Shown here: positions 46,909 through 59,923 of the stretch, piece after piece
Layout of the letters: every line of letters starts with the position of its first letter
How positions within the stretch are numbered: the first letter of the stretch is position 1
DNA from: Pirellulaceae bacterium
GTDB taxonomy: Bacteria > Planctomycetota > Planctomycetia > Pirellulales > Pirellulaceae
Assembly (NCBI GenBank): GCA_018402565.1
Contig: JAGYIQ010000001.1
Location: 682,001-746,000, forward strand
Reading direction: 5' to 3'
DNA length: 64,000 bases
Made by a program: the position numbers and the translations under genes
Notes under the pieces: generated by a model
Databases searched by the model: none
The model's input: the letters and a program-made list of their open reading frames with translations, nothing else
What the model was told of the DNA's origin: nothing

Positions 46909-47925
46909 ATGCCTCTTGTTCCTCTACGTGCTGTGTTGGATTTTGCGGCTGAAAACGATTTTGGCGTGGCCGCCTTCAACGTGAATAACATGGAGCAGAT
47001 CCAGTCCATCATGGAAGCTGCGAAAGAGACCGATTCGCCGGTTATCGTACAGGCCTCCCGTGGTGCTCGTAGCTACTCGCAGGACAATTACCTACGCCAC
47101 TTGATGCTGGCTGCCGCCGAACTGTACCCAGAGATTCCGATCGTGATGCACCAGGATCACGGCAACAGCCCGGAGACCTGCTTGAGCGCCATCGAAAATG
47201 GCTTCACCTCGGTCATGATGGACGGCTCCTTAAAAGAAGACGGCAAGACGCCAGCCGATTACGAATACAACGTAAATGTGACCAAGCAAGTCGTGGACCT
47301 GGCTCATGCCCGCGGCGTGAGCGTCGAAGGTGAACTGGGGTGCCTGGGTTCGCTGGAATCGGGCGAAGGCGAAGCCGAAGACGGTCATGGTGCTGAAGGG
47401 AAGCTGTCCCACGATCAGCTGTTGACCGACCCCGAAGAAGCGGCTCGGTTCGTCGCAGCCACCAATGTCGATGCCCTGGCCGTCGCGATTGGCACCAGCC
47501 ACGGCGCCTACAAATTCACTCGTAAGCCCGACGGCGACGTCTTGGCCATGGATCGCATCGAGGCCATCCACAAGCTGTTGCCCAACACCCACTTGGTGAT
47601 GCACGGCAGCAGCAGCGTACCGCAAGAACTGCAGGACCTGATCAACAAGTACGGTGGTAACATCCGCCAGACCTACGGTGTGCCGGTCGAAGAAATCCAA
47701 CGAGGTATCAAGTCGGGCGTCCGCAAGATCAACGTCGACACCGATAATCGCTTGGCGATCACGGCTGCCATCCGCCAAGTGCTGATGACCTCGCCCGAGA
47801 AGTTCGATCCACGCGATTACCTCAAGCCGGCTCGTGACGCGATGAAGCAAGTTTGCGTCGCCCGCATGGTATCGTTCGGTCAAGCGGGTTTCGCCAGCAA
47901 GATGCGGCAACTGTCGCTGGCATAA
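46909..47925 (+). CDS. fba: Class II fructose-bisphosphate aldolase
   Basis: This 338-residue zinc aldolase cleaves fructose-1,6-bisphosphate in glycolysis and works in reverse in gluconeogenesis or the Calvin cycle. The first zinc histidine and acidic residue are in MHQDHG (80-85). GELG (about 141-144) and GTSHGAYKF hold further active-site residues, and VMHGSSSVP (about 226-234) the next histidine. KINVDTDNR is the phosphate site. [25 protein letters not shown] is close to the Calvin-type CbbA group. Translation starts 60 bases after tRNA-His. Confidence 0.96.
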
Positions 47926-47935
47926 ACGCCATCTA

Positions 47936-49062
47936 CTGAGCTAACGCGTTCCACTGAGCTAACGCGTTCCACTGGAGTGAGCGGCAAGGCGCTAGCCGCC
48001 GGTCTACCCTAGCAACGCTATCCACCGCGCTAACGCGTTCCACTGAGCTAACGCGTCCACTGGAGTGAGCGGCAAGGCGTTAGCCGCCGGTCTACTCAGC
48101 AACGCTATCCACGCGCGCAACGCGCTCCACTGAGCTGACGCTATCCATTGCGGAGTGGTAGGGCGCAGCCGCCGTTCACTCGCAACGCATCCACCGCGCA
48201 GCGCGTTCCACTGGAGTGAGCGGCAGAAGCGCCGCCGGTCTCCCCTAGCAACGCCATCCACCGCGCTAACGCCATCCACTGGAGTGAGCGGCAAGGCGCC
48301 AACCGCCGGTCTACCCTAGCAACGCTATCCACCGCGCTAACGCTATCCACCGCGCTAACGCTATCCACTGGAGTGAGCGGCAAGGCGCTAGCCGCCGGTC
48401 TACCCTAGCAACGCCATCCACCGCGCTAACGCCATCCACCGCGCTAGCGCGTTCCATTGGAGTGAGCGGCAAGGCGCCAACCGCCGGTCTACCCTAGCAA
48501 CGCCATCCACCGCGCTAACGCTATCCACTGGAGTGAGCGGCAAGGCGCTAGCCGCCGGTCTACCCTAGCAACGCCATCCACCGCGCTAACGCCATCCACT
48601 GCGCTAACGCTATCCACTGGAGTGAGCTGGCAGGCGGCCGCCGGTCTACCTAGCAACGCCATCCACCGCGGCTTTAGCGCGTTCCACTGGAGTGAGCGGC
48701 AAGGCGCTAGCCGCCGGTCTACCCTAGCAACGCTATCCACCGCGCTAACGCCGTTCCACTGGAGTGAGCGGCAAGGCGCTAGCCGCCGGTCTACCCTAGC
48801 AACGCCATCCACCGCGCAGCTCGCGCTCGTATCCACTGGAGTGAGCGGCAGAGGCGGCTACAGCCGCCGGTCTACCCTAACAGCGCCATCCACCACCGCT
48901 CTGCGCTATCCACTGGAGTGAGCGGCAAGGTGCAGCGCCGGTCTACCTAGCAACGCCATCCACCGCGCTAACGCTATCCACTGAGCTAACGCGTTCCACT
49001 GGAGTGGGCGGCATAAACGCCAACCGCCGGTCTCCCCTAGCAACGCTATCCACCGCGTCAGC
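47936..49062. repeat. Array of 14 degenerate tandem repeats, about 70 bp each
   Basis: A unit of about 71 bp (CACTGGAGTGAGCGGCAAGG and onward, ending CTAACGCTATC) occurs 14 times with variants. Short inserts of an 18-bp sub-unit (CACCGCGCTAACGC) sit between some copies. Units start near 47971, 48059, 48147, 48210, 48279, 48367, 48457, 48527, 48617, 48687, 48758, 48836, 48912 and 48995. Each unit contains the near-palindrome GGCGCTAGCCGCC. No protein gene is supported. Confidence 0.9.
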
Positions 49063-49091: not shown

Positions 49092-49874
49092 TTAGGACGG
49101 CGATTCGGGCTGCTCACGCTCGTGACGGAGCTGCAGGCGGCGCACGAGCCGCTCGAGGAGCTGACTTTGCAGCGGCTCATTGGGCTTCATGCCATAATGC
49201 TCCAACAGCTGCAGGACGGTGGTATCGATGTTGGGCCCCAACAGCGGGTCGTCAAAAGCCAGAAAGAACGCCAGCTCACTGGGATTGTCCAGACCCCGCA
49301 GAAACTGCATGACACGGTTGTCCGCCGAGCGTCGTTGGTGCCGTTCGGCGACCAACACCGCCAATTTCTGAGATGCAGAGGGCCCCTTTTCGCCGACCGC
49401 CTCGCGTTGCGGACGGGTCATTGGCTGAGGTTCAACGGCCACCGATTCCCTGCGTCGAGGCTGAGAATCCGCTGCCGTCGGCGCCGCGATTTCAAGTTGC
49501 TGGACCAGGCCCAAAATAACTGGGCAACGAGCGATCGTCGCGTTGGCTGATACCGTGGACGATGCTGCTAGAGAACTGCTCGAACCAATGATGGGTTCAT
49601 TCGCTGGGACAGATAAGGCCATCGCCTGCTGGATGAAGACCCTGTCGATGTTGCCGTCATGAATTCGATAGTCAAGACTCGCTTGATTACACGCATCTTG
49701 AACTTGCAGAAACGTGTCGCGGTGATGGCACAACAACAGCGTCAACGCGGCACGTCGACGATCGGGCAGCCAGCCAACCAAGTTCTGGTTCAGCTGGCTG
49801 CGCGACATCAGATACGTATCCGCGAACTCGCGAACCTTGGGCCGCCACGAAAACAGCCAGGAAAACAGGCCCAT
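49092..49874 (-). CDS. Unknown protein at the end of the PilMNO-like cluster
   Basis: This 260-residue protein has an amphipathic N-terminus (MGLFSWLFSWRPKV), then alpha-rich sequence and a low-complexity middle. The C-terminal domain (about 170-260) is helical and acidic with QQLEI and LQLLEHYG motifs. I do not recognise a family. It starts 20 bases after the stop of the large low-complexity gene and is read in the same direction, so it is probably its partner in the same transcript. No membrane anchor is evident. Confidence 0.65.
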   Translation of the reverse strand: MGLFSWLFSWRPKVREFADTYLMSRSQLNQNLVGWLPDRRRAALTLLLCHHRDTFLQVQDACNQASLDYRIHDGNIDRVFIQQAMALSVPANEPIIGSSSSLAASSTVSANATIARCPVILGLVQQLEIAAPTAADSQPRRRESVAVEPQPMTRPQREAVGEKGPSASQKLAVLVAERHQRRSADNRVMQFLRGLDNPSELAFFLAFDDPLLGPNIDTTVLQLLEHYGMKPNEPLQSQLLERLVRRLQLRHEREQPESPS

Positions 49875-49894
49875 AGGGGGAGGGAGTTCCGCGA

Positions 49895-52267
49895 CTAGTT
49901 ATTACCGCCTGGTCGACCCGAGCGTCCGGCTCCGCCACCCATACCGCTACGCCCAGACCGGCCCGCGTCTCCCGGAGGGCCGTTGTTGCCGGGAGGGCCA
50001 CCACCGCCCGGGAAGCCGCTGCGTCCGGAGCGACCACCCGCGGCACCACGACCGCGACCTTCGCGTTCATCACCCGCATCGCCTTGGTTCTGATCTGCCT
50101 CGGCTAATTTATCAATCAAGCCATCTTCGCGGAGAACTTCACCGCTGAGCCAAGTGAAATCCCGAGCATTGGCGTTCGCCGAGCGAACTTGCAATTGCCC
50201 AGCGGAATCCAACACAAGCGCCTCGGTGGGTACCATGAACTTGGTCTTGGAGTCGGAACCACCGGTGATCTCACGTCCACCGAGGAAGTCGACCAGCACC
50301 ATACCGCTATTGCCTGTATAGCCGGGGGCCGTGGTGCGGGCAGCGACGGGCATGCCGTCGTTGTTCTCCAACTTGCGGTACTCGCGAGTGATGGGATCCA
50401 GGACCTTGGTCACGGCCGTCCCGCCCAGCAAAGAGCCCGGGTAGACGGTCTCGTTGACCAACGGGACCTTGATCCCGAATGTGCTGTCCCAGATCGCCGC
50501 CAGCATGCGGACAGAACCCTCACGGACGCTGAACCTGACTTCCTGGTTGCCGACGGTCGACTTGACCGGCGACGGTATCGACGCCGTGCCGACCAGCGCA
50601 TCGCCGCGAATCTCGCTCACGCGAAGCGGCGGTGTGGGTTCACTCCAAGCACTGGGGCGACAATTGGTCAGGACCGGCATCGGACGCTTCAGGCTGCTCT
50701 CCAAAGTCAATCGTTCGCGGACCTCGGGGGACAAGTGATCCAGCTTGACGTTGGATTGGATCACCTCGTTCTCCAATTCGTCCTCGTCCTGGACTTCGGA
50801 CTCCCGCTCATCATCCGAGGCGGTTGCCGACATGGCCATGGCTTGGCGCTTGGGGGCAGTGTCAACAAATCCAGCCATCTTGATCGGATTGTTAGGATCG
50901 TAGACCCAGTAACGGACCCGGTACTCGTACTCGTTGCCCGGCAGCACCGTCGGGTCGCTGAATCGCACCAGCTTGTAGTCGACCAAATCCAGGGGCTCCT
51001 CAACCGCCATGCTGGCCATCCCCGATTGCCCAGAACGGCCCGACATACCGGACATACCCGAGCGACCTGACATGCCACCTGACATTCCCGACCGGCCTGA
51101 CATTCCCGACTGTCCTGACATGATGCCGGATCGACCTGACATTCCCGACTGTCCTGACATGCCGGATCGACCGGACATACCTGACATCCCTGACCGACCT
51201 GACATACCACTACGGCCCGATTGTGCCCCACCATCACGGCCTCCACCATCACGGCCTCCACCATCACGGCCCGTGGGTGTCGTAGCCGCCAGAGCCGGGT
51301 CCTCCGGCAATTCAAAGGCCGGCAGCTGTAGGTGCGTGGCGGCATCGTAATAATCGTTTAACAGAAAGGGCGGGAACGGACGGGTCAAGGCTCGATTGGC
51401 GTACTTGTCATCAAACGGATCTGGCGCGGAGACCACATAGGTCTTCTCCTGTTCCTTGATCGCGTCAGTGTAGTCCTCCCATTCGCCGCCATTGACTCGC
51501 CGCTGGATTTCCAGATGACGCACCAAGAATCGATCATTCGCGGGATTGTATCCCACTGCGTTACGGAAGGCGTTGCGGAAGTTGAGATAGTTCTCTTTGA
51601 ACGGGAACAGGTACTTGACCGTGGCTACGTACCGATCGACAGGTGCCGGGTTCTGCAGATCTGGCAGACCCGCTTTGACCGGGTCGATCCCCGGTGCAGC
51701 GACAACCGCACCCAAATCAGCCGTGGGACCTGTATTGGTGCGACGTCCGCTGCCGTCGTCCATTGCCGGCCCGCCCTGGCGACCGCCCGAGGCGGCAGCC
51801 TCCGCGATCTCCAGCGGGGTCAACAGGCCCAAGGGATGCCGACCGGACGCCGTATCCGCCAAGCTGACTCGATCGACGTTGACTTCCGGAGAAGTTACGG
51901 GCGCCAATGTCGGATCGGACCGCAGCGCAGCCGCTGCCGAGCGGCGTGCCAGGAGATAATCGAAGGTAAAGTCCGATGCAGCAACCTGCACTTTGCTGGA
52001 ATCCAGCTTATCGACCGTTCCGGAGATGGCCAAGCGTTGCGGACGCAGCGTCTCCCAGCGACCATTCTTGATGTGATTTTCGGCTGAGGTGACCGTGGCC
52101 TCCAACGAGGTCGGGGTTCGCCCCTGCAGGTCAGGACTGAGTCCCATCCCCAGATACGCGAACGTCCCCAACAGCCCAGCCGCCACGCCCAAGCCGACTT
52201 TTTCCCCATGCCGAACGAAAAAGGCCTTGGCCTTGTTCTCGTTCAATTCCATTTCAAACTTATTCAT
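49895..52267 (-). CDS. Large inner-membrane protein with Ser/Gly/Met and collagen-like repeats
   Basis: This 790-residue protein has one N-terminal membrane segment (about 24-43) and a large extracytoplasmic part. Two low-complexity stretches stand out. SGMSGRSG-type repeats fill about 347-420. The C-terminus (about 735-790) is RSGRSG with GPPGNNGPPGD, which is collagen-like. Between them is a mixed alpha/beta region containing YEYRVRYWVYDPNNP. Position after the pilMN-like and pilO-like genes suggests a PilP or GspC-like role, but I see no sequence match (inference). GGAG precedes the ATG. Confidence 0.75.
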   Translation of the reverse strand: MNKFEMELNENKAKAFFVRHGEKVGLGVAAGLLGTFAYLGMGLSPDLQGRTPTSLEATVTSAENHIKNGRWETLRPQRLAISGTVDKLDSSKVQVAASDFTFDYLLARRSAAAALRSDPTLAPVTSPEVNVDRVSLADTASGRHPLGLLTPLEIAEAAASGGRQGGPAMDDGSGRRTNTGPTADLGAVVAAPGIDPVKAGLPDLQNPAPVDRYVATVKYLFPFKENYLNFRNAFRNAVGYNPANDRFLVRHLEIQRRVNGGEWEDYTDAIKEQEKTYVVSAPDPFDDKYANRALTRPFPPFLLNDYYDAATHLQLPAFELPEDPALAATTPTGRDGGGRDGGGRDGGAQSGRSGMSGRSGMSGMSGRSGMSGQSGMSGRSGIMSGQSGMSGRSGMSGGMSGRSGMSGMSGRSGQSGMASMAVEEPLDLVDYKLVRFSDPTVLPGNEYEYRVRYWVYDPNNPIKMAGFVDTAPKRQAMAMSATASDDERESEVQDEDELENEVIQSNVKLDHLSPEVRERLTLESSLKRPMPVLTNCRPSAWSEPTPPLRVSEIRGDALVGTASIPSPVKSTVGNQEVRFSVREGSVRMLAAIWDSTFGIKVPLVNETVYPGSLLGGTAVTKVLDPITREYRKLENNDGMPVAARTTAPGYTGNSGMVLVDFLGGREITGGSDSKTKFMVPTEALVLDSAGQLQVRSANANARDFTWLSGEVLREDGLIDKLAEADQNQGDAGDEREGRGRGAAGGRSGRSGFPGGGGPPGNNGPPGDAGRSGRSGMGGGAGRSGRPGGNN

Positions 52268-52406
52268 CTTCCAACTCCTTCAAGTGGTTCAACCTCGGCC
52301 ATGGCCGTGGCGACTTGTTCGGTGGTCAAATTTCCAGGCGGCGTTTGTTCGGGCGGCGTCTGCCACAGTCCGCTACATGCGGGTTGCCGAACTGAAATCC
52401 CTTGTC

Positions 52407-53960
52407 CTACAGTGTCGGCGAAGCAGCCGGCGTCTTGCCGATCGCTTCCGGAGACGGCTGACTGTAGAACTTGATCACCCCGTAAATCTCCAACGGCACC
52501 AAAAAGTGCGAATTGAACTCGGGGCTCTTGAAGTTCTTCTCCCCATCGCTGCCCCCGACGGGGCCGCCGTCCATCGCCGCACCCTGCCCGCCACGATCCG
52601 CGTCCTCGTCGATAGTCGCCGACTCCCCCGACCCGGCAACCGAAGGATTCCGCGAATTTGTCGGTCCGCCGGTCCTGCCTGCCGCCGCGGCACCGGCCGG
52701 AGCCGCGGGCAGTTCACCGCCGATAATGGTGACCTGACGCACCTCCAATGGCAACTTGGCGTTGGCGCACTTCTCGAGGATCTCGGCAATACGTCGCTCG
52801 TCGACCCGCAGACGCAAACGCACCGGCACGATTTTCACCACCGACATCCAAGAATCGGCGGACAGTTGATTGGCGGAGGTCGATGTCCGGTACTGAGCTG
52901 CTGGAATCGGATTGAAGTCTTTGTCGACATAACGCAGGTGGGCCGGATCCAACAACTCGATGTCGGAAGCCGAGATCTCGGTCTTTTCTGTTTTGCCACC
53001 ACCCAGAATATTCTGCATGGCATCCCGCATCATTCTCATGCGATTGTCCATTTCCCCCGCAAACCCACCGGCTCCACCGCCGTCCATGCCGCCAGCATCC
53101 AGCGGTTCGGCCTCATGGGCTTCTTTGCCGATCATGATGCTGCCAATTTCGCGAATGGCTGCTTGCGAAGGAACCATCGCGTCCCGGTTCGCCTCTTTGA
53201 TGATCTCCAAGACGCCGTTGAGCAAGACCAAATTTTCCTTCAGGTACAGGACCTGCACGGTGGTCGGGGTGCCATCGGGAGCTTGATTGCCGTTCAGCCC
53301 CTTAAAGTTGGTCATCCGACCATACCAATCGATTTGGTCCGCGACCGACCAATCGACAATCGGTTGATCGAACATCAACCGCTCCATGTCATCTTTAGCC
53401 TCGGCGCTGGCCACCACACTGGGAGTCTTCGGGGGCTCGCCCGTCACCTCTTCCTCGTTCCATTTGGCACGAACCGAATTGACCAATTCAGGCATCAAAC
53501 GTGGAAAAAACGTACGGATCTGTTTGCGGCGTGGCTCCAACACTTCGCCTTTGGTCGAGTTCGGGTCGAATACGAATTGATCGGCTCGCAGCGCGTCGAA
53601 AGGGGCCGAGACCACGGGATCGATCACGTTGCCCGGCCAGCCCAACAGGTCTTTTTGTTCGGTGTACAGCCTGTCCCAGCCGGCCAGCAATTCGTCTTTG
53701 CCCGCATCGATCTCCTGCTTCATCCCTTGGATCGTCTCATCATTGGGATGGACACTCACACCGGCCGATGGATCGACATCGGCTTTGACAGACGTCACGC
53801 TCTTGGCCTTGGATTCCGCCCCAACAATATCGGTTTTCTGGCGATTGATCACGTCTCCCAACGTCATCCAAGACCAGATCCCGACACCGATCGTGGCCAG
53901 CATCACCGCGGTGCAAGCAATCCAAAAGTGGTATTTAAGCAGGGGCTTCAGTTTGTCCAT
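52407..53960 (-). CDS. PilO-like inner-membrane protein
   Basis: This 517-residue protein has one membrane helix (about 12-33) after a short basic N-terminus (MDKLKPLLKYHFW), then a coiled region, a Gly-rich linker and a C-terminal alpha/beta domain. VPVRLRLRVDERRIAEILEK, then CANAKLPLEVRQVTI, and the final LVPLEIYGVIKFYS, look like the two halves of the ferredoxin-like PilO/GspM fold. This reading depends on position and fold shape, not on strong similarity. An AAAAGGA precedes the ATG. It is longer than a typical PilO (about 200 residues), with large inserts. Confidence 0.7.
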   Translation of the reverse strand: MDKLKPLLKYHFWIACTAVMLATIGVGIWSWMTLGDVINRQKTDIVGAESKAKSVTSVKADVDPSAGVSVHPNDETIQGMKQEIDAGKDELLAGWDRLYTEQKDLLGWPGNVIDPVVSAPFDALRADQFVFDPNSTKGEVLEPRRKQIRTFFPRLMPELVNSVRAKWNEEEVTGEPPKTPSVVASAEAKDDMERLMFDQPIVDWSVADQIDWYGRMTNFKGLNGNQAPDGTPTTVQVLYLKENLVLLNGVLEIIKEANRDAMVPSQAAIREIGSIMIGKEAHEAEPLDAGGMDGGGAGGFAGEMDNRMRMMRDAMQNILGGGKTEKTEISASDIELLDPAHLRYVDKDFNPIPAAQYRTSTSANQLSADSWMSVVKIVPVRLRLRVDERRIAEILEKCANAKLPLEVRQVTIIGGELPAAPAGAAAAGRTGGPTNSRNPSVAGSGESATIDEDADRGGQGAAMDGGPVGGSDGEKNFKSPEFNSHFLVPLEIYGVIKFYSQPSPEAIGKTPAASPTL

Positions 53961-54064
53961 CGTTCCAGTCCTTTTCGCAAATCGCTCACAAGGTAGCGTT
54001 CGATATTGTTCAATCTTTCAGGCGAGTCCAACGTGACAGGCGACCGAGCGGCTTTTCACCGATC

Positions 54065-56326
54065 TCAGCCACCCTCGGCCGGCGTGGTCCCATCTTCGGC
54101 GGCGGCCGCCGCAGCTTCCGCCGCTTGCTTCTCTCGCTCCAATCGTGCCAACTTCCGGGCTTTGACTTCTTCTTCCGTCTTTGGCATCCAAGCCGCCATC
54201 AGGATAAAGGTCGTGCGAATCGCCTCCACGCCATCGGTGACTTCCGCCGCCGCGGACTGGCCGCTGCCGCTGCCGCCCATTTTGCCCATGCCGGATTTCA
54301 TTCCCGCCCCCATCGCGTCCTGCATCTTGCGAAATTGGTCGGCTTCCGACAACTCGTCGTCTTCCAAGATGGCGTTGGGGTCCGCTGCTTCGTCCTCTTT
54401 GGGCTTGGCGCCGGGAACCATGGTTGGAGTCGGCGGCGAGGCCATCATGATGGTTGGCTTGACGATCCCCAGATCCTCCAACAGATAGGCCTCGCCCGCC
54501 ACAATCACCTCTTGGTTCAACAGGTTGTTCAGCAGCGATTCGCGGATAAAGGCTCGGCCGGTGGGCAAACCAGCCTCCGCCCGAGCCGTACTGTTCACAT
54601 AATGGTGACCGCTCAAGCGAATCGACCAACCTTTGCCCTGCGGCGCATTGGGATCTTCCGCAGACGCGGCCGCTGCCTCAACCTCTTCGCCAGGCTTCCG
54701 CAAACCCAGCACCAGTTCCAACTCGCGTAGGTCTTCCTCAAACTGTAGCTTCACCTCTTCACCAAACCACTCGGCCAAGTCCTCGACTTGATCCTGCGTA
54801 AAACCGTCGATGAAGATCTCTTCCCGATCCACAAACGGCAGAGTTTCCGGATCAACCTGCATGTCTTGCGAACGTGGGTCTTTCGGAATCACTTGACTGA
54901 TGGCCGACAACACACGCATCAACTGGGTGCGAGAAGTCGTGCCGCTGATCAATTCGCCACCCAAGGCATTCACGTGCCCCAGTTCCGTCTTGAGCTTATC
55001 GTCTTCCGACTTGAACTGGCCGCTACGACTGCTGACCGCGGTCGCCTTGCTCTTCACACCGCCCCAAGTCTTGTTGTTGGCGTCCGTGTACCCGTCGCTG
55101 GTGGCGTAACTGTACCAACTACCCATCGCGTGCTGCACTGCCAAACCGACCATGACCATGGCGACCGCACCCAACACCCACGGCTTCTTGGCCCGCACGA
55201 TTTTCTCGACCACAAACTCTTCAGGCAGCAGATTGGTCGTCATGGCCGACTTGTCCAAGGCCTGAACACACAGGCCATAACACGGCGCGAACGCACGCAA
55301 GTGCTCCGAAAACGTCTTCTGGCCAACCACCTCAGCACCCGCCAAATTTTCGAACTTCTCAAAGCGGCTGATCGGCTGCTCCAGCTGCTGTTCCAGGTAC
55401 TGTCGCAAGCCCGGCAGTTTGCTGGCATTGCCCAGCAAAATCGTGTTGCTAAAGGTGGCATTGCGGTCGATCGACCGGAAGTAGTTCAGCGAACGAACCA
55501 ACTCATCGCTCAGATCGGCGAAGACCGGACGCATGGCCGAGAAAACCGCTTTCGGATCCTCCGCCTGGCGTGAATTCAACTTCAGGTGCTCCGCCTTGGC
55601 GTGGGTCAACTTCATCTCCCGCGCCAACTGCTTGGTGAAGTGATTGCCACCAATAGCGATGTTACGCAGCCACAGCCGCAACCCGTTCGAGATCACGACG
55701 TCCGTCGACTCGGTACCGATCGAAATCACCATCGTGTACGGTGGCGGGTTTTCCGGATCGACCGATTCCGGGGCAGGCAATTCACCCAGGACATCGTGGC
55801 AGATCATGTTGTAGGTCGCGATCGGAGACAACTGAATGATATCGACTTCAACACCCGCGTCCAAAAACGGCTGCATGGCCCGATACACCGCCTCACGCTT
55901 CATCGCCAACAAACCGACTTCCGCATCGGTCAGTTGGCCATCATCCAAGTAGCCGCCCAATTGTTGCCAATCCCACACCACTTCATCGATTTGGAACGGG
56001 ATCTGCTGCTTGGCTTCGTACTTGACGATGCTGGGCAACAACTTGGGTTCGGTGGCCGGCGGCCGAAAGAATCGCGCCAAACCCGATTGCCCCGAAACCG
56101 AGATCGCCACCTTGTCACCACGGACCTTGTTTCGCGAGAGAAACTGCTCCAATGCCTCGCGGACCGTCTCCTCGGGCCGAGCATCCGGTTGACTCAGCGG
56201 CTTCGGGTACTCGATGTAGTCAAAGCCCAAAGCCGTGACTTGCCCGTCGGCTCCGACCGTACAACGCAGGGCCTTGAGGGCGCACTGCCCAATGTCGACT
56301 CCCCATGCTGCCTGTTGTTTCGCCAT
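54065..56326 (-). CDS. PilM-PilN fusion (GspL-like) of a type IV pilus or secretion machine
   Basis: Residues 1-375 of this 753-residue protein are PilM-like: the actin-type phosphate loop GVDIGQCALKALR (9-21), GTESTDVVISNGLRLWL (about 204-220) and the adenosine loop ILLGNASKLPGLRQYL (about 296-311). A membrane helix follows (about 382-402), then a coiled segment (about 420-460) and a PilN-like periplasmic region that includes TQLMRVLSAISQVIPKD (about 467-483). The C-terminal 190 residues are Gly/Ala/Met-rich, with a charged tail. Joining PilM and PilN in one chain is the layout of GspL. It is first in a four-gene minus-strand cluster. Confidence 0.85.
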   Translation of the reverse strand: MAKQQAAWGVDIGQCALKALRCTVGADGQVTALGFDYIEYPKPLSQPDARPEETVREALEQFLSRNKVRGDKVAISVSGQSGLARFFRPPATEPKLLPSIVKYEAKQQIPFQIDEVVWDWQQLGGYLDDGQLTDAEVGLLAMKREAVYRAMQPFLDAGVEVDIIQLSPIATYNMICHDVLGELPAPESVDPENPPPYTMVISIGTESTDVVISNGLRLWLRNIAIGGNHFTKQLAREMKLTHAKAEHLKLNSRQAEDPKAVFSAMRPVFADLSDELVRSLNYFRSIDRNATFSNTILLGNASKLPGLRQYLEQQLEQPISRFEKFENLAGAEVVGQKTFSEHLRAFAPCYGLCVQALDKSAMTTNLLPEEFVVEKIVRAKKPWVLGAVAMVMVGLAVQHAMGSWYSYATSDGYTDANNKTWGGVKSKATAVSSRSGQFKSEDDKLKTELGHVNALGGELISGTTSRTQLMRVLSAISQVIPKDPRSQDMQVDPETLPFVDREEIFIDGFTQDQVEDLAEWFGEEVKLQFEEDLRELELVLGLRKPGEEVEAAAASAEDPNAPQGKGWSIRLSGHHYVNSTARAEAGLPTGRAFIRESLLNNLLNQEVIVAGEAYLLEDLGIVKPTIMMASPPTPTMVPGAKPKEDEAADPNAILEDDELSEADQFRKMQDAMGAGMKSGMGKMGGSGSGQSAAAEVTDGVEAIRTTFILMAAWMPKTEEEVKARKLARLEREKQAAEAAAAAAEDGTTPAEGG

Positions 56327-56683
56327 TGCTCCGTCGTTCCTCTACTAGTTGTGCGTGGTCGCATACTCTTTGACGCGGGGCCCCGGTGGGAAAGTTCCCA
56401 AAATTCTGGGATTCCGGCCTAATCATTCGCCGGCCCCACTCCCAACGGGTACACGGGTCCCCCTGCTCGAGCCGCCTCGGTCCCATTCAGTATATACAAA
56501 ACCCCGTTCATTTCGCTCTAGCACTTCCCAACTTCTCGATTTAATTATCATGTTCGCTCTCCCAGGATTGCCGGTTGTGCCGCTCATGACCGGTAGGGAA
56601 TCGCCCGCTCACGGGGTAGAATTGACGCCTCCGGCCACCCCTTGCGACCCGATCCGCTCGGTTCTGGAAAGTACCCGCCCACA
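56327..56683. other. 357-bp divergent intergenic region
   Basis: It separates the pilMN-like gene from the GH38-like gene and must hold both promoters. It is AT-richer near 56490-56560 (TATATAC at about 56492). No gene or repeat was found. Confidence 0.5.
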
Positions 56684-59600
56684 ATGATCCACTCGCTCCG
56701 CCTGTTGCTGCCCTGCCATAGCCTGGAGGATTTCCCGACCTACCACACCGGCGAAGACGCGGAAAATCTACTGGTGGCCTGGACCCTGCCCTGGCACCCC
56801 ACCTGGTTGGAACGCGCCGGAAAACTGCCCGAATGGACACGTGTCGAGAATATTCCCGACTCCTGCGCCGGCGTCGGTTTCCTGGTCCCACGCGTCTCCC
56901 AAGCCAGACTCCCCAGCGGATTTCGAGATCGCTGCCAACAACAAGGCGGCCTGCTCTTCGATGTCCCCACCGATCGTGAAGAAGCCTTCACGCAACTCCT
57001 CGCCCGCGTCAACCTACTCGAGCAGGAACCGCCACAAGAACGAATCGCCCCAATATCGGACTCGACACAGGTAGCTACCCCACAGGCAAATACCCCAGAA
57101 GCGAGCGACCATGACGCGGGTGACCCTAACACCGTTGACCCTGAGGCGGGCGTTTCCATCGGAGCCGACGCGAGGAGATCGCTCGTTCCCGGCCCACTGG
57201 GGACCTGCTCGCCAGCCGTCGCCCAACGGTTCTTTGCCCTGGGCTATACCTACCTGCAGGTCGAGCTGCTGACGCGGCAACTCCGCTACACCAGCAACCT
57301 GGACCAGGCCCATTTCCAGACACTGGTCTTGCAAGCCGCCAACGCGGCCCTGCGTTCCGATACCGCGGCATTGGACGAGACCTTGGGGCGTTGCTTCGAC
57401 CTGCTGTCCGAGGAACGCCACCGCTACTACCCCATGCCCTCGCTGCTCTGCGACCTGACTCTGCTGGCCCCCTCCACCTTGAGCAGCGTGACCGCAACGC
57501 CACCGGTCCCCGTCCAAGTCGATCAGCGGCTGCCGGTAAATTGGCTGATTTCGGCCGATCTGCTCTGCCGTCTCCGAGCCCTGCAGCCCAGCCGTTGGGC
57601 CGAGCTCCAAGCGGCCGTGGCCGCCGGCGACATCCACCTGGTCAGCTGCGGCTACAATCAAGCGCCCACGGGCCTACTCTCGCACGAAACCCTCCGCCGC
57701 AACCTGGCTTGGGGGCAGGCCGCTCTGAGTCACTTGGTCGGCCAACCGGCTCGCGTGTTCGGTCGACGCCTGCCTGGCCTCGAGCTGACCTTGCCCGGTT
57801 TGCTGCCGCGATACGGCTTTCGCTCGGCCTTGCATCAGGCCCTGGACGGCGAACGCTTGCCGCAGACCTCGCATACCTACCTCCGCTGGCAAGGACTCGA
57901 CGGCGAAACCCTGCCGGCATTAACCAAGACGATCTACGACTCCGCCGAGGCCAACACGTTTTTGAAATTGGGCGTCCGCATCGGGGAGTCGTTGGATGTC
58001 GACCACGTCGCGGCCAGCCAGTTCGTGCATTGGCCTGGCCCCAGTTCCGTCGGTTACCGCGACTTGTTGCTCGCAGCCCAAGAGGGCGATGCCTTGGGTC
58101 GCTGGTGCCATATCGAGGACCTGATCGGCCAGATCAACGACCCTGGATACAGCCCGTCGCTGTCCAGCTACGATTACCAGGCCAGTTATCTCAAGCAGTT
58201 TTTGGCCGAGCTGCCTCAATCCGCCGATGTCGCGGAGCCTCTGGCCAAAGTCAGGGAGCTGATTCACCGCGAGTCGCAACTGCGGAGAGTCTCCCTGCTG
58301 TCTGGGCTCACGCAGCTCGCGATGGCCGATCGAACTCCGGCAAAAACCACCGAAACGGTCGACCCGGTCGAGCCCTGGACGGCGAACGACGACGACCGAG
58401 CCGCACTGGCGACCGCCGAGCACGGCCTAGCGATGTGGCAACAGCTACTGGGCCCGGCGGAACGAGTATTGACTCGCGAGCGGCTGGAAGCGACCACGGT
58501 GGTGCAGACGCTCACGGAAGCCGGTGACCAATGCCGGTTGCTGGTCAACCCCGAAGCTCACAGCCGGCGTGTCCTCCTGTCGCCCGCCGACTTGGGACGC
58601 TGTCACCCCGGGGCCTTGCCACCCGATCAAGTCTACGCCACGTACCGGGATCGGCAGGGATGGTGGGCCGTGGTCGATGTCCCGCCGCTGGGCTACCTGC
58701 ACTTCAACAACGCGGCCGGCCCCAAGCAGAAAATTGGCCGACAACCTCGCGTTAAGTTGGTGGCCGGCGGCACCACGCTCCGCAATGAGTTCTTGTCGGC
58801 CAGTATCGACCCGCAGACCGGGGCCCTGCGTTCGATTCACGACTATCAGAGTCGCGGCAACCTGTGTTCGCTGCAGTTGGCTTGGTTCGATCAATCGATC
58901 AAGTCGACCATCGAGAAGCTCTGGCGGAAACCGACTGGATTGGACTGGAAAGCGGGTCTGTCCCAGCTCCTGGGCGGCGGTGACCCCGACGGCTTGCGAC
59001 GGCAATTGGCTCCACACGCCGAAGGCTACTCAGCCATGCAGGCCCAGAAAGTCGAAGTGGTCACCAACCATCCGTTGCACGGGCACATTCGCACGCAGGG
59101 GCAGTTGCACCTGGCCGGCAAGGTGATCGCCAAGTTTGTGATCGACTACAAGTTGACCCTCGGCAGCCGCTTCCTGGAGATCACCTGCCAATTGACACCC
59201 ACCTCCAAGCCGAAAACGGTTCCCTGGACCGAGGAGCAGAGCTACGAATTCCCGCCGACCGACGACGTGACCGGCAGCGGTTTTCGTCGCTACTTCGCCT
59301 GGCGTTTCGCCCAAGCACACCCCAGTGCGGAGGTGTACCGCGACATGAACTCGATGGCGGTAGAAGCCACGCGGCCAACCACAATCGCCCCACGCTGGTT
59401 GGAGTTCCGAGGCGTGGATCAATCGCTGGCATGGCTGACCGGCGGCTCGGCGTTTCATCGCTTTCCGGCCGATGGCCGAGTCGATACGCTGGTGGGTCTG
59501 TCCCCTACCACTCCCGCAACGTCAACGGTCGCCATTGGACTCAGCCCCCCCAATCTGACGGCAGCGGCGGAGAGCCAACTGCTGCCACCGATCTGTTTGC

Positions 59601-59923
59601 CCAGCGGCCCATTGCGGACGGGACTGCCCACGGGCGCCTGGTTGTTCCGCTGCAGCTCACGGAATATTGTGGTCACGCATTGGGAGAATCGGTACGCCGA
59701 CGAACGCTGGATTGGCGTCCGCCTGAGGTTGCTGGAGACCAGCGGACGTTCGCGCAAGTTCAAGCTGGAGTTTGCCGGCCGACCGACCGCGGTTCGTGTC
59801 GCGTTGCCGCCCGGGGCAGAGCCGTCCTTGGAGCAATCGCGGCCCGACTGCCAGCTCGTGGGGGAACAGATCGAGTGCCGCTTGAGCCCCTGCGAGCACG
59901 CTGAACTGGAAGTGGACTTTTAG
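56684..59923 (+). CDS. GH38-like carbohydrate-active protein, degenerate catalytic region
   Basis: This 1079-residue protein has the layout of GH38 alpha-mannosidases. A family-like helical region (AELQAAVAAGDIHLVSCGYN, then SHETLRRNLAWGQ, residues about 305-345) is followed at about 690-830 by a C-terminal beta-domain recognised by TLRNEFLSASIDPQTGALRS. The usual zinc HxD and nucleophile Asp (WLPD) signatures are not visible: where WLPDxFG would be, the sequence reads GRRLPGLELTLPG. It may be an inactive or very divergent enzyme. The ATG at 56684 is chosen; the first residues MIHSLRLLLPCH show no signal peptide. It is followed 8 bases later by cmk. Confidence 0.65.
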   Translation: MIHSLRLLLPCHSLEDFPTYHTGEDAENLLVAWTLPWHPTWLERAGKLPEWTRVENIPDSCAGVGFLVPRVSQARLPSGFRDRCQQQGGLLFDVPTDREEAFTQLLARVNLLEQEPPQERIAPISDSTQVATPQANTPEASDHDAGDPNTVDPEAGVSIGADARRSLVPGPLGTCSPAVAQRFFALGYTYLQVELLTRQLRYTSNLDQAHFQTLVLQAANAALRSDTAALDETLGRCFDLLSEERHRYYPMPSLLCDLTLLAPSTLSSVTATPPVPVQVDQRLPVNWLISADLLCRLRALQPSRWAELQAAVAAGDIHLVSCGYNQAPTGLLSHETLRRNLAWGQAALSHLVGQPARVFGRRLPGLELTLPGLLPRYGFRSALHQALDGERLPQTSHTYLRWQGLDGETLPALTKTIYDSAEANTFLKLGVRIGESLDVDHVAASQFVHWPGPSSVGYRDLLLAAQEGDALGRWCHIEDLIGQINDPGYSPSLSSYDYQASYLKQFLAELPQSADVAEPLAKVRELIHRESQLRRVSLLSGLTQLAMADRTPAKTTETVDPVEPWTANDDDRAALATAEHGLAMWQQLLGPAERVLTRERLEATTVVQTLTEAGDQCRLLVNPEAHSRRVLLSPADLGRCHPGALPPDQVYATYRDRQGWWAVVDVPPLGYLHFNNAAGPKQKIGRQPRVKLVAGGTTLRNEFLSASIDPQTGALRSIHDYQSRGNLCSLQLAWFDQSIKSTIEKLWRKPTGLDWKAGLSQLLGGGDPDGLRRQLAPHAEGYSAMQAQKVEVVTNHPLHGHIRTQGQLHLAGKVIAKFVIDYKLTLGSRFLEITCQLTPTSKPKTVPWTEEQSYEFPPTDDVTGSGFRRYFAWRFAQAHPSAEVYRDMNSMAVEATRPTTIAPRWLEFRGVDQSLAWLTGGSAFHRFPADGRVDTLVGLSPTTPATSTVAIGLSPPNLTAAAESQLLPPICLPSGPLRTGLPTGAWLFRCSSRNIVVTHWENRYADERWIGVRLRLLETSGRSRKFKLEFAGRPTAVRVALPPGAEPSLEQSRPDCQLVGEQIECRLSPCEHAELEVDF

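Follow-up and report, generated by a model that had tools for sequence, protein, structure and literature searches.

The window analysed here is a stretch of 64,000 nucleotides from a Pirellulaceae bacterium (C1:682001-746000 of a 7.2-Mb draft genome) and carries on its minus strand four consecutive genes, M, O, X and S. We consider it highly probable that a PilM-PilN fusion (M), a protein with a predicted PilO/Amuc_1100 fold (O) and a protein in the PilP slot (X) make up the alignment platform at the inner membrane for an enlarged type IV pilus machine in planctomycetes, and that the fourth gene encodes a SecA-derived mini-protein without ATPase motifs (S). An earlier interpretation made from the DNA letters alone, here called the sequence-only reading, had proposed an inner-membrane platform, and this proposal is sustained by the fusion itself, by the predicted PilO-like fold of O, by the gene order M(N)-O-X-Q, in which Q is a giant secretin, and by pilus genes elsewhere in the genome.

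Results

The four open frames listed in the sequence-only reading are all present on the minus strand. The first of them, M (54065..56326, 753 aa), matches Pfam PilM_2 at residues 9-354 (8.3e-27, 94.4 bits against a cut-off of 27) and the NCBIfam pilM model TIGR01175 (133.5 bits, cut-off 133). It also matches Amuc_1101_fam (NF045709) with 182.7 bits, short of the curated cut-off of 650, which places M below the Amuc_1101 equivalog level. Both the pilM and the Amuc_1101_fam models match all 39 aligned members of the M family (39 of 55 were aligned). Among solved structures M matches PDB 3jc8, 2ych and 5eou. The last is a PilM with an attached piece of PilN, and its alignment with M runs to residue 368, ending in NLLP (365-368). 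The NLLP peptide of PilN binds PilM. A TNLLP-type motif, [TI]N[LM]xP, occurs in 37 of the 39 aligned members, and E370, K380, P382 and W383 are invariant. These residues are followed by a hydrophobic stretch, at about 383-405 by eye, and by a part in the PilN position. No match to PilN (PF05137) was returned for this remainder of the chain in the Pfam search. Judged by homology, M is thus a PilM-PilN fusion consisting of a PilM domain (residues ~9-354), the NLLP peptide of PilN, a hydrophobic stretch and a further domain, and the GspL plan ascribed to it earlier is upheld. The nearest named relatives, from the 'Planctomycetaceae bacterium' isolates new MAG-46 and MAG-47, are 77 and 75 % identical over the best segment. 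Several relatives' genomes also encode second M-type proteins of about 30-32 % identity (e.g. G049:C414, G026:C180 and G034:C117), perhaps belonging to a second platform.

M was matched in 58 of 59 genomes, and 55 loci, the window's own included, were read from the 58 (G019, G046 and G052, with M at a contig end, were omitted). M-O-X was complete in 51 of the 55, O being present in 54 and X in 51, and a contig edge is reached in every locus where one of these is missing. In a second set of 80 named loci, M was called in 79, while 72 had O and 62 had X. Here, too, the sequence stops short wherever O or X is missing, except in L200, where X was found and M and O were not called. This conservation confirms the frames as real genes. 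M-O-X is thus no isolated oddity: the module is conserved across the order, and it is related to the Amuc_1098-1101 pilus cluster of Akkermansia.

Among loci with room for it, a giant secretin, Q, follows X at a distance of at most 3 kb in 11 of 43 in the first set and in 16 of 49 in the second, counts that are not to be summed since the two sets share genomes. Pfam Secretin was present in both of the X-following giant proteins tested. Median lengths, truncated frames included, were 555 aa for O, 740 aa for X and 1317 aa for Q. The order M(N)-O-X-Q equals the usual order pilM-N-O-P-Q (PMC3724824) and, reversed, that of the Akkermansia cluster, which spans Amuc_1098 to 1102 (PMC10688800; this and the other papers cited by PMC number are used here in excerpt). 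A family of small proteins follows the giant secretin in six loci (e.g. L053:3563-4054), and the member tested is DUF423.

O (52407..53960, minus strand, 517 aa) was aligned in 50 of its 54 members, and in a larger alignment combining O frames above 480 aa (56 of 58), 17 of 29 further relatives and the O of the window. O, like X, has a predicted membrane helix. When its predicted structure was compared with solved folds, Amuc_1100 ranked highest and PilO next. The Amuc_1100_fam model (NF038287) was the commonest NCBIfam match among the O members, found in 6 of 50 with a best E of 0.0035; the O of the window itself gave no match to it in the NCBIfam search. Foldseek alone returned no E below 0.001 for predicted O or X, and assignment of O and X by sequence profiles through solved structures yielded nothing meaningful. 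Two points slightly lower our confidence in the pilus reading and in a PilO fold of O: the structural score of PilO itself was no better than that of unrelated rows, and two better-scoring NCBIfam matches point towards type II secretion. On the predicted structure O would fold like Amuc_1100 of Akkermansia and like PilO, and the PilO-like character assigned to it earlier survives in this form.

These matches bear on whether the platform might belong to a type II secretion system (GspL-GspM-GspC-GspD) and not to a pilus, an alternative that we regard as improbable. It would account for the PilM-PilN fusion, which is the plan of GspL (PMC3724824), and single O members matched T2SSM (E 0.082) and GspM_XpsM (0.014), while two matched T2SS_GspB (0.001). 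Against this stand the pilM and Amuc_1101_fam matches in every aligned M, the position of Amuc_1100_fam as the model most often matched among the O members and the predicted resemblance of O to Amuc_1100 and PilO; moreover, a separate PilM/PilN/PilO-ATPase-secretin cluster on contig C147, described below, could serve secretion. The assignment of M-O-X to a type IV pilus platform of PVC type is a strong one.

X (49895..52267, minus strand, 790 aa) occupies the gene slot of PilP and Amuc_1099. Its predicted structure has a hydrophobic N-terminal helix and a beta-rich C-terminal part. Tandem Repeats Finder (TRF) detected arrays at 51039-51271 on the minus strand, corresponding to an insert rich in Gly, Ser, Met and Arg. 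The predicted local distance difference test (pLDDT) fell below 50 at residues 330-420, which cover the insert, and at 726-790, and the repeat stretch noted earlier in the 790-aa protein was thereby confirmed. X members were aligned in 49 of 51 cases, and a larger alignment took X frames above 600 aa (53 of 62), 9 of 11 close relatives and the X of the window. There is a reasonable though somewhat less than even chance that X is a true homologue of PilP or GspC diverged past recognition. Its slot between O and the secretin, its N-terminal helix with the beta-rich C-terminal part, and a weak match of Amuc_1099_fam to 1 of the 49 members are consistent with such descent. On the other side, no PilP or GspC match was obtained in the sequence searches with X; neither appeared among its structural rows, but a fibronectin type III (FNIII)-like part filled that comparison, so the C-terminal part was barely tested. 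Matches to tolA_full (8.5e-5) and gly_rich_SclB (0.0011), in one X member each, appear to be low-complexity matches to the repeats and were set aside.

The remaining parts of a pilus machine are encoded outside the window. Genome searches for T2SSE, Secretin, N_methyl and Peptidase_A24, which took in C1:682001-746000, placed none of their matches there, in agreement with the earlier observation that ATPase, prepilin and secretin are missing from the window. Elsewhere in the genome there were 12 T2SSE matches (10 above the cut-off), 13 T2SSF stretches, 58 N_methyl matches and 3 Peptidase_A24 stretches in 2 frames. With the Secretin matches, the ATPase, PilC-type, secretin and prepilin genes for which the sequence-only reading had recommended a search are all present; that reading had been staked on ATPases and secretins somewhere in the genome, and since both are encoded there it holds on this point. 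A secretin of 1191 aa at C1:121529-125101, about 0.6 Mb from the window genes, is a close full-length relative of the operon-linked Q proteins, the best four BLAST matches being 38.7-40.6 % over 1171-1241 positions. Among the matches listed, the genome's two remaining giant secretins align with the operon-linked ones over only 58-378 positions. By similarity, the C1:121529-125101 secretin is probably the orthologue of operon-linked Q. Giant secretins at C112 and at C1:55.6-59.3 kb, of 1295 and 1226 aa, share 33 % identity, contain 5 and 6 Secretin_N stretches, respectively, and are distinct from the pilus-type one. At C147:74820-81158, T2SSF and T2SSE matches fall in same-strand frames of 469, 572, 369 and 578 aa, which by family and length are a PilC/PilB/PilT/PilB-like group. 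The region C147:257-269 kb encodes a 599-aa secretin, an ATPase and separate PilM-like (367 aa, below the cut-off), PilN (207 aa) and PilO (190 aa) proteins, which are normal-sized counterparts within the same genome.

S (49092..49874, minus strand, 260 aa) starts 20 bases after X. SecA models match it (secA, 3.2e-6), and its residues 168-252 align with residues 502-586 of SecA in PDB 3iqm (5.3e-5). The close S family alone (15 sequences) matched the SecA profile with 94.8 % probability over 88 C-terminal columns, the standalone set in this comparison comprising 17 of 20 sequences. A profile of 29 mini-proteins, drawn from 35 S-type sequences (P0002, P0007, P0015, L135, L138 and L140 omitted), matched SecA with 98.7-98.8 % probability from the start to the end of its second nucleotide-binding domain (NBD2). 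In control comparisons, the O, X and M profiles reached 0.0-0.3 %; five column shuffles stayed at or below 0.1 %, and reversing the alignment gave 0.2 %. TIGR00963 matched 27 of the 29 minis. Patterns that we take to represent the DEAD box, motif V and motif VI were found in none of the 29, whereas all 8 SecA sequences matched; a loose G[KR]T pattern occurred in one mini. The DEAD-box domain, that is, the whole first nucleotide-binding domain, is absent from S. By profile comparison, S is a relative of the NBD2 of SecA without DEAD box, motif V and motif VI. In many minis the N terminus is a short run of aromatic and hydrophobic residues, for instance MGLFSWLF, and may contact the membrane.

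Mini-type SecA matches (E at most 1.1e-41) were found in at least 39 of 396 genomes of the order, those of the window and of one congener included, a lower bound with up to 7 first-look candidates scored per genome. All but one of these frames are 131-311 aa long (38 frames), the exception having 570 aa, and two match in the C-terminal half only; after a step down in score, the next matches are long SecA frames, with E values of 4e-25 or poorer. A search of 246 genomes of the phylum gave 3 with a mini at E 1e-30, the window's own included. The sequence-only reading had listed the 260-aa protein as an unknown following the other three; by descent it is a SecA fragment and not a pilus protein. 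The chances are only slightly below even that S sits behind X by coincidence, as a hitch-hiking gene with no part in the platform. S follows X in just 3 of 55 loci, all in the genus of the window, and 20 other mini-SecA loci (7.4-14.0 kb read) contained no M, O, X or Q gene. Their neighbours vary and include an Nramp transporter, a kinase and a thioredoxin-like gene, and no shared genomic partner of the distant minis emerged (10 neighbours tested with Pfam). The opposite is suggested by the short spacing from X, by the 44 invariant columns retained among 14 close S relatives of 40-85 % identity, and by 4 of these 14 apparently sharing a genome with an O relative, 3 of the 4 also with an X relative. 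The genome of the window additionally encodes a 637-aa SecA_DEAD protein (G000:C2:39729-41639, L243) that resembles the secondary kind described in PMC4452313.

Promoter and terminator scans of the locus gave results at chance level only. A 1.07-kb array of 18-base units in periods of 71-160 bases (47935-49001) lies between the frame 46909-47925 and the end of S. Diverging from M, a plus-strand gene at 56642-59923 encodes a 1093-aa protein that Glyco_hydro_38N matches weakly (E 5e-5, under the cut-off), and its family is found in 38 of the 55 loci, mostly adjoining M directly.

Discussion

The closest known counterpart of M-O-X-Q is the Amuc_1098-1101 cluster of Akkermansia muciniphila (Verrucomicrobiota), which likewise has a long PilM-type protein, a large secretin and the same relative gene order, and whose Amuc_1100 fold is predicted for the planctomycete O. 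However, O, X and Q are long (the PilQ of Akkermansia is 907 aa; PMC4960237), matches to the Amuc_1101 and Amuc_1100 models are weak or fall short of the cut-off, and Amuc_1099 is recognized in a single X member. The type IVa PilMNOPQ system shares the PilM domain, the NLLP peptide of PilN, the predicted PilO-like fold and an order ending in the secretin. Here, in contrast, PilM and PilN are fused, PilP is not recognized, and O and X are several times larger than canonical PilO and PilP, as the 190-aa PilO of the same genome illustrates. With the type II GspL-GspM-GspC set the module has in common the one-chain PilM-PilN plan, but the best-matching families and folds are mainly those of pili. 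S derives from the NBD2 of SecA; in the secondary SecA_DEAD proteins described from planctomycetes the DEAD domain is retained and the wing is lost (PMC4452313), whereas in S the first nucleotide-binding domain is missing entirely, as are motifs V and VI. Among the matches listed from open-access literature, and as far as their excerpts go, there was no account of an NBD2-only SecA or of a PilM-PilN fusion in planctomycetes.

In the proposed machine, M would be placed at the cytoplasmic side, where, in the manner of PilM, it would engage the ATPases for extension and retraction; the NLLP peptide that it carries on its own chain would occupy the groove of its PilM domain, and its periplasmic part would pair with O. 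Towards the giant outer-membrane secretin Q, the periplasm would be bridged by O and X. The machine would further draw on the pilins, the prepilin peptidase and the proteins of PilC and PilB/PilT type whose genes lie elsewhere in the genome. The extra length of O, X and Q may span an enlarged periplasm, such as has been described for planctomycetes (PMC11958385, PMC11131199), and would fit it. More speculatively, S could work from the cytoplasm at the inner membrane as a partner without ATPase function; it might, as a mimic of the SecA NBD2, bind SecA or the Sec channel close to where pili are assembled.

Crateriform structures and fibres have been seen in planctomycetes by microscopy (PMC5394234), and three putative pilQ genes could be deleted in Planctopirus limnophila (PMC11958385); the excerpts of these two papers name no inner-membrane platform. 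It is conceivable, though we would not count on it, that M-O-X and the giant secretin Q are the molecular identity of the crateriform structures, the press-stud links between the two membranes that give rise to pili-like fibres, with S as a domesticated SecA pseudo-motor coupling the Sec export channel to the machine. The M-O-X module supplies testable platform genes, tied to the Amuc_1100 cluster of Akkermansia, and S shows an export-motor domain cut down to a mini-protein without ATPase motifs.
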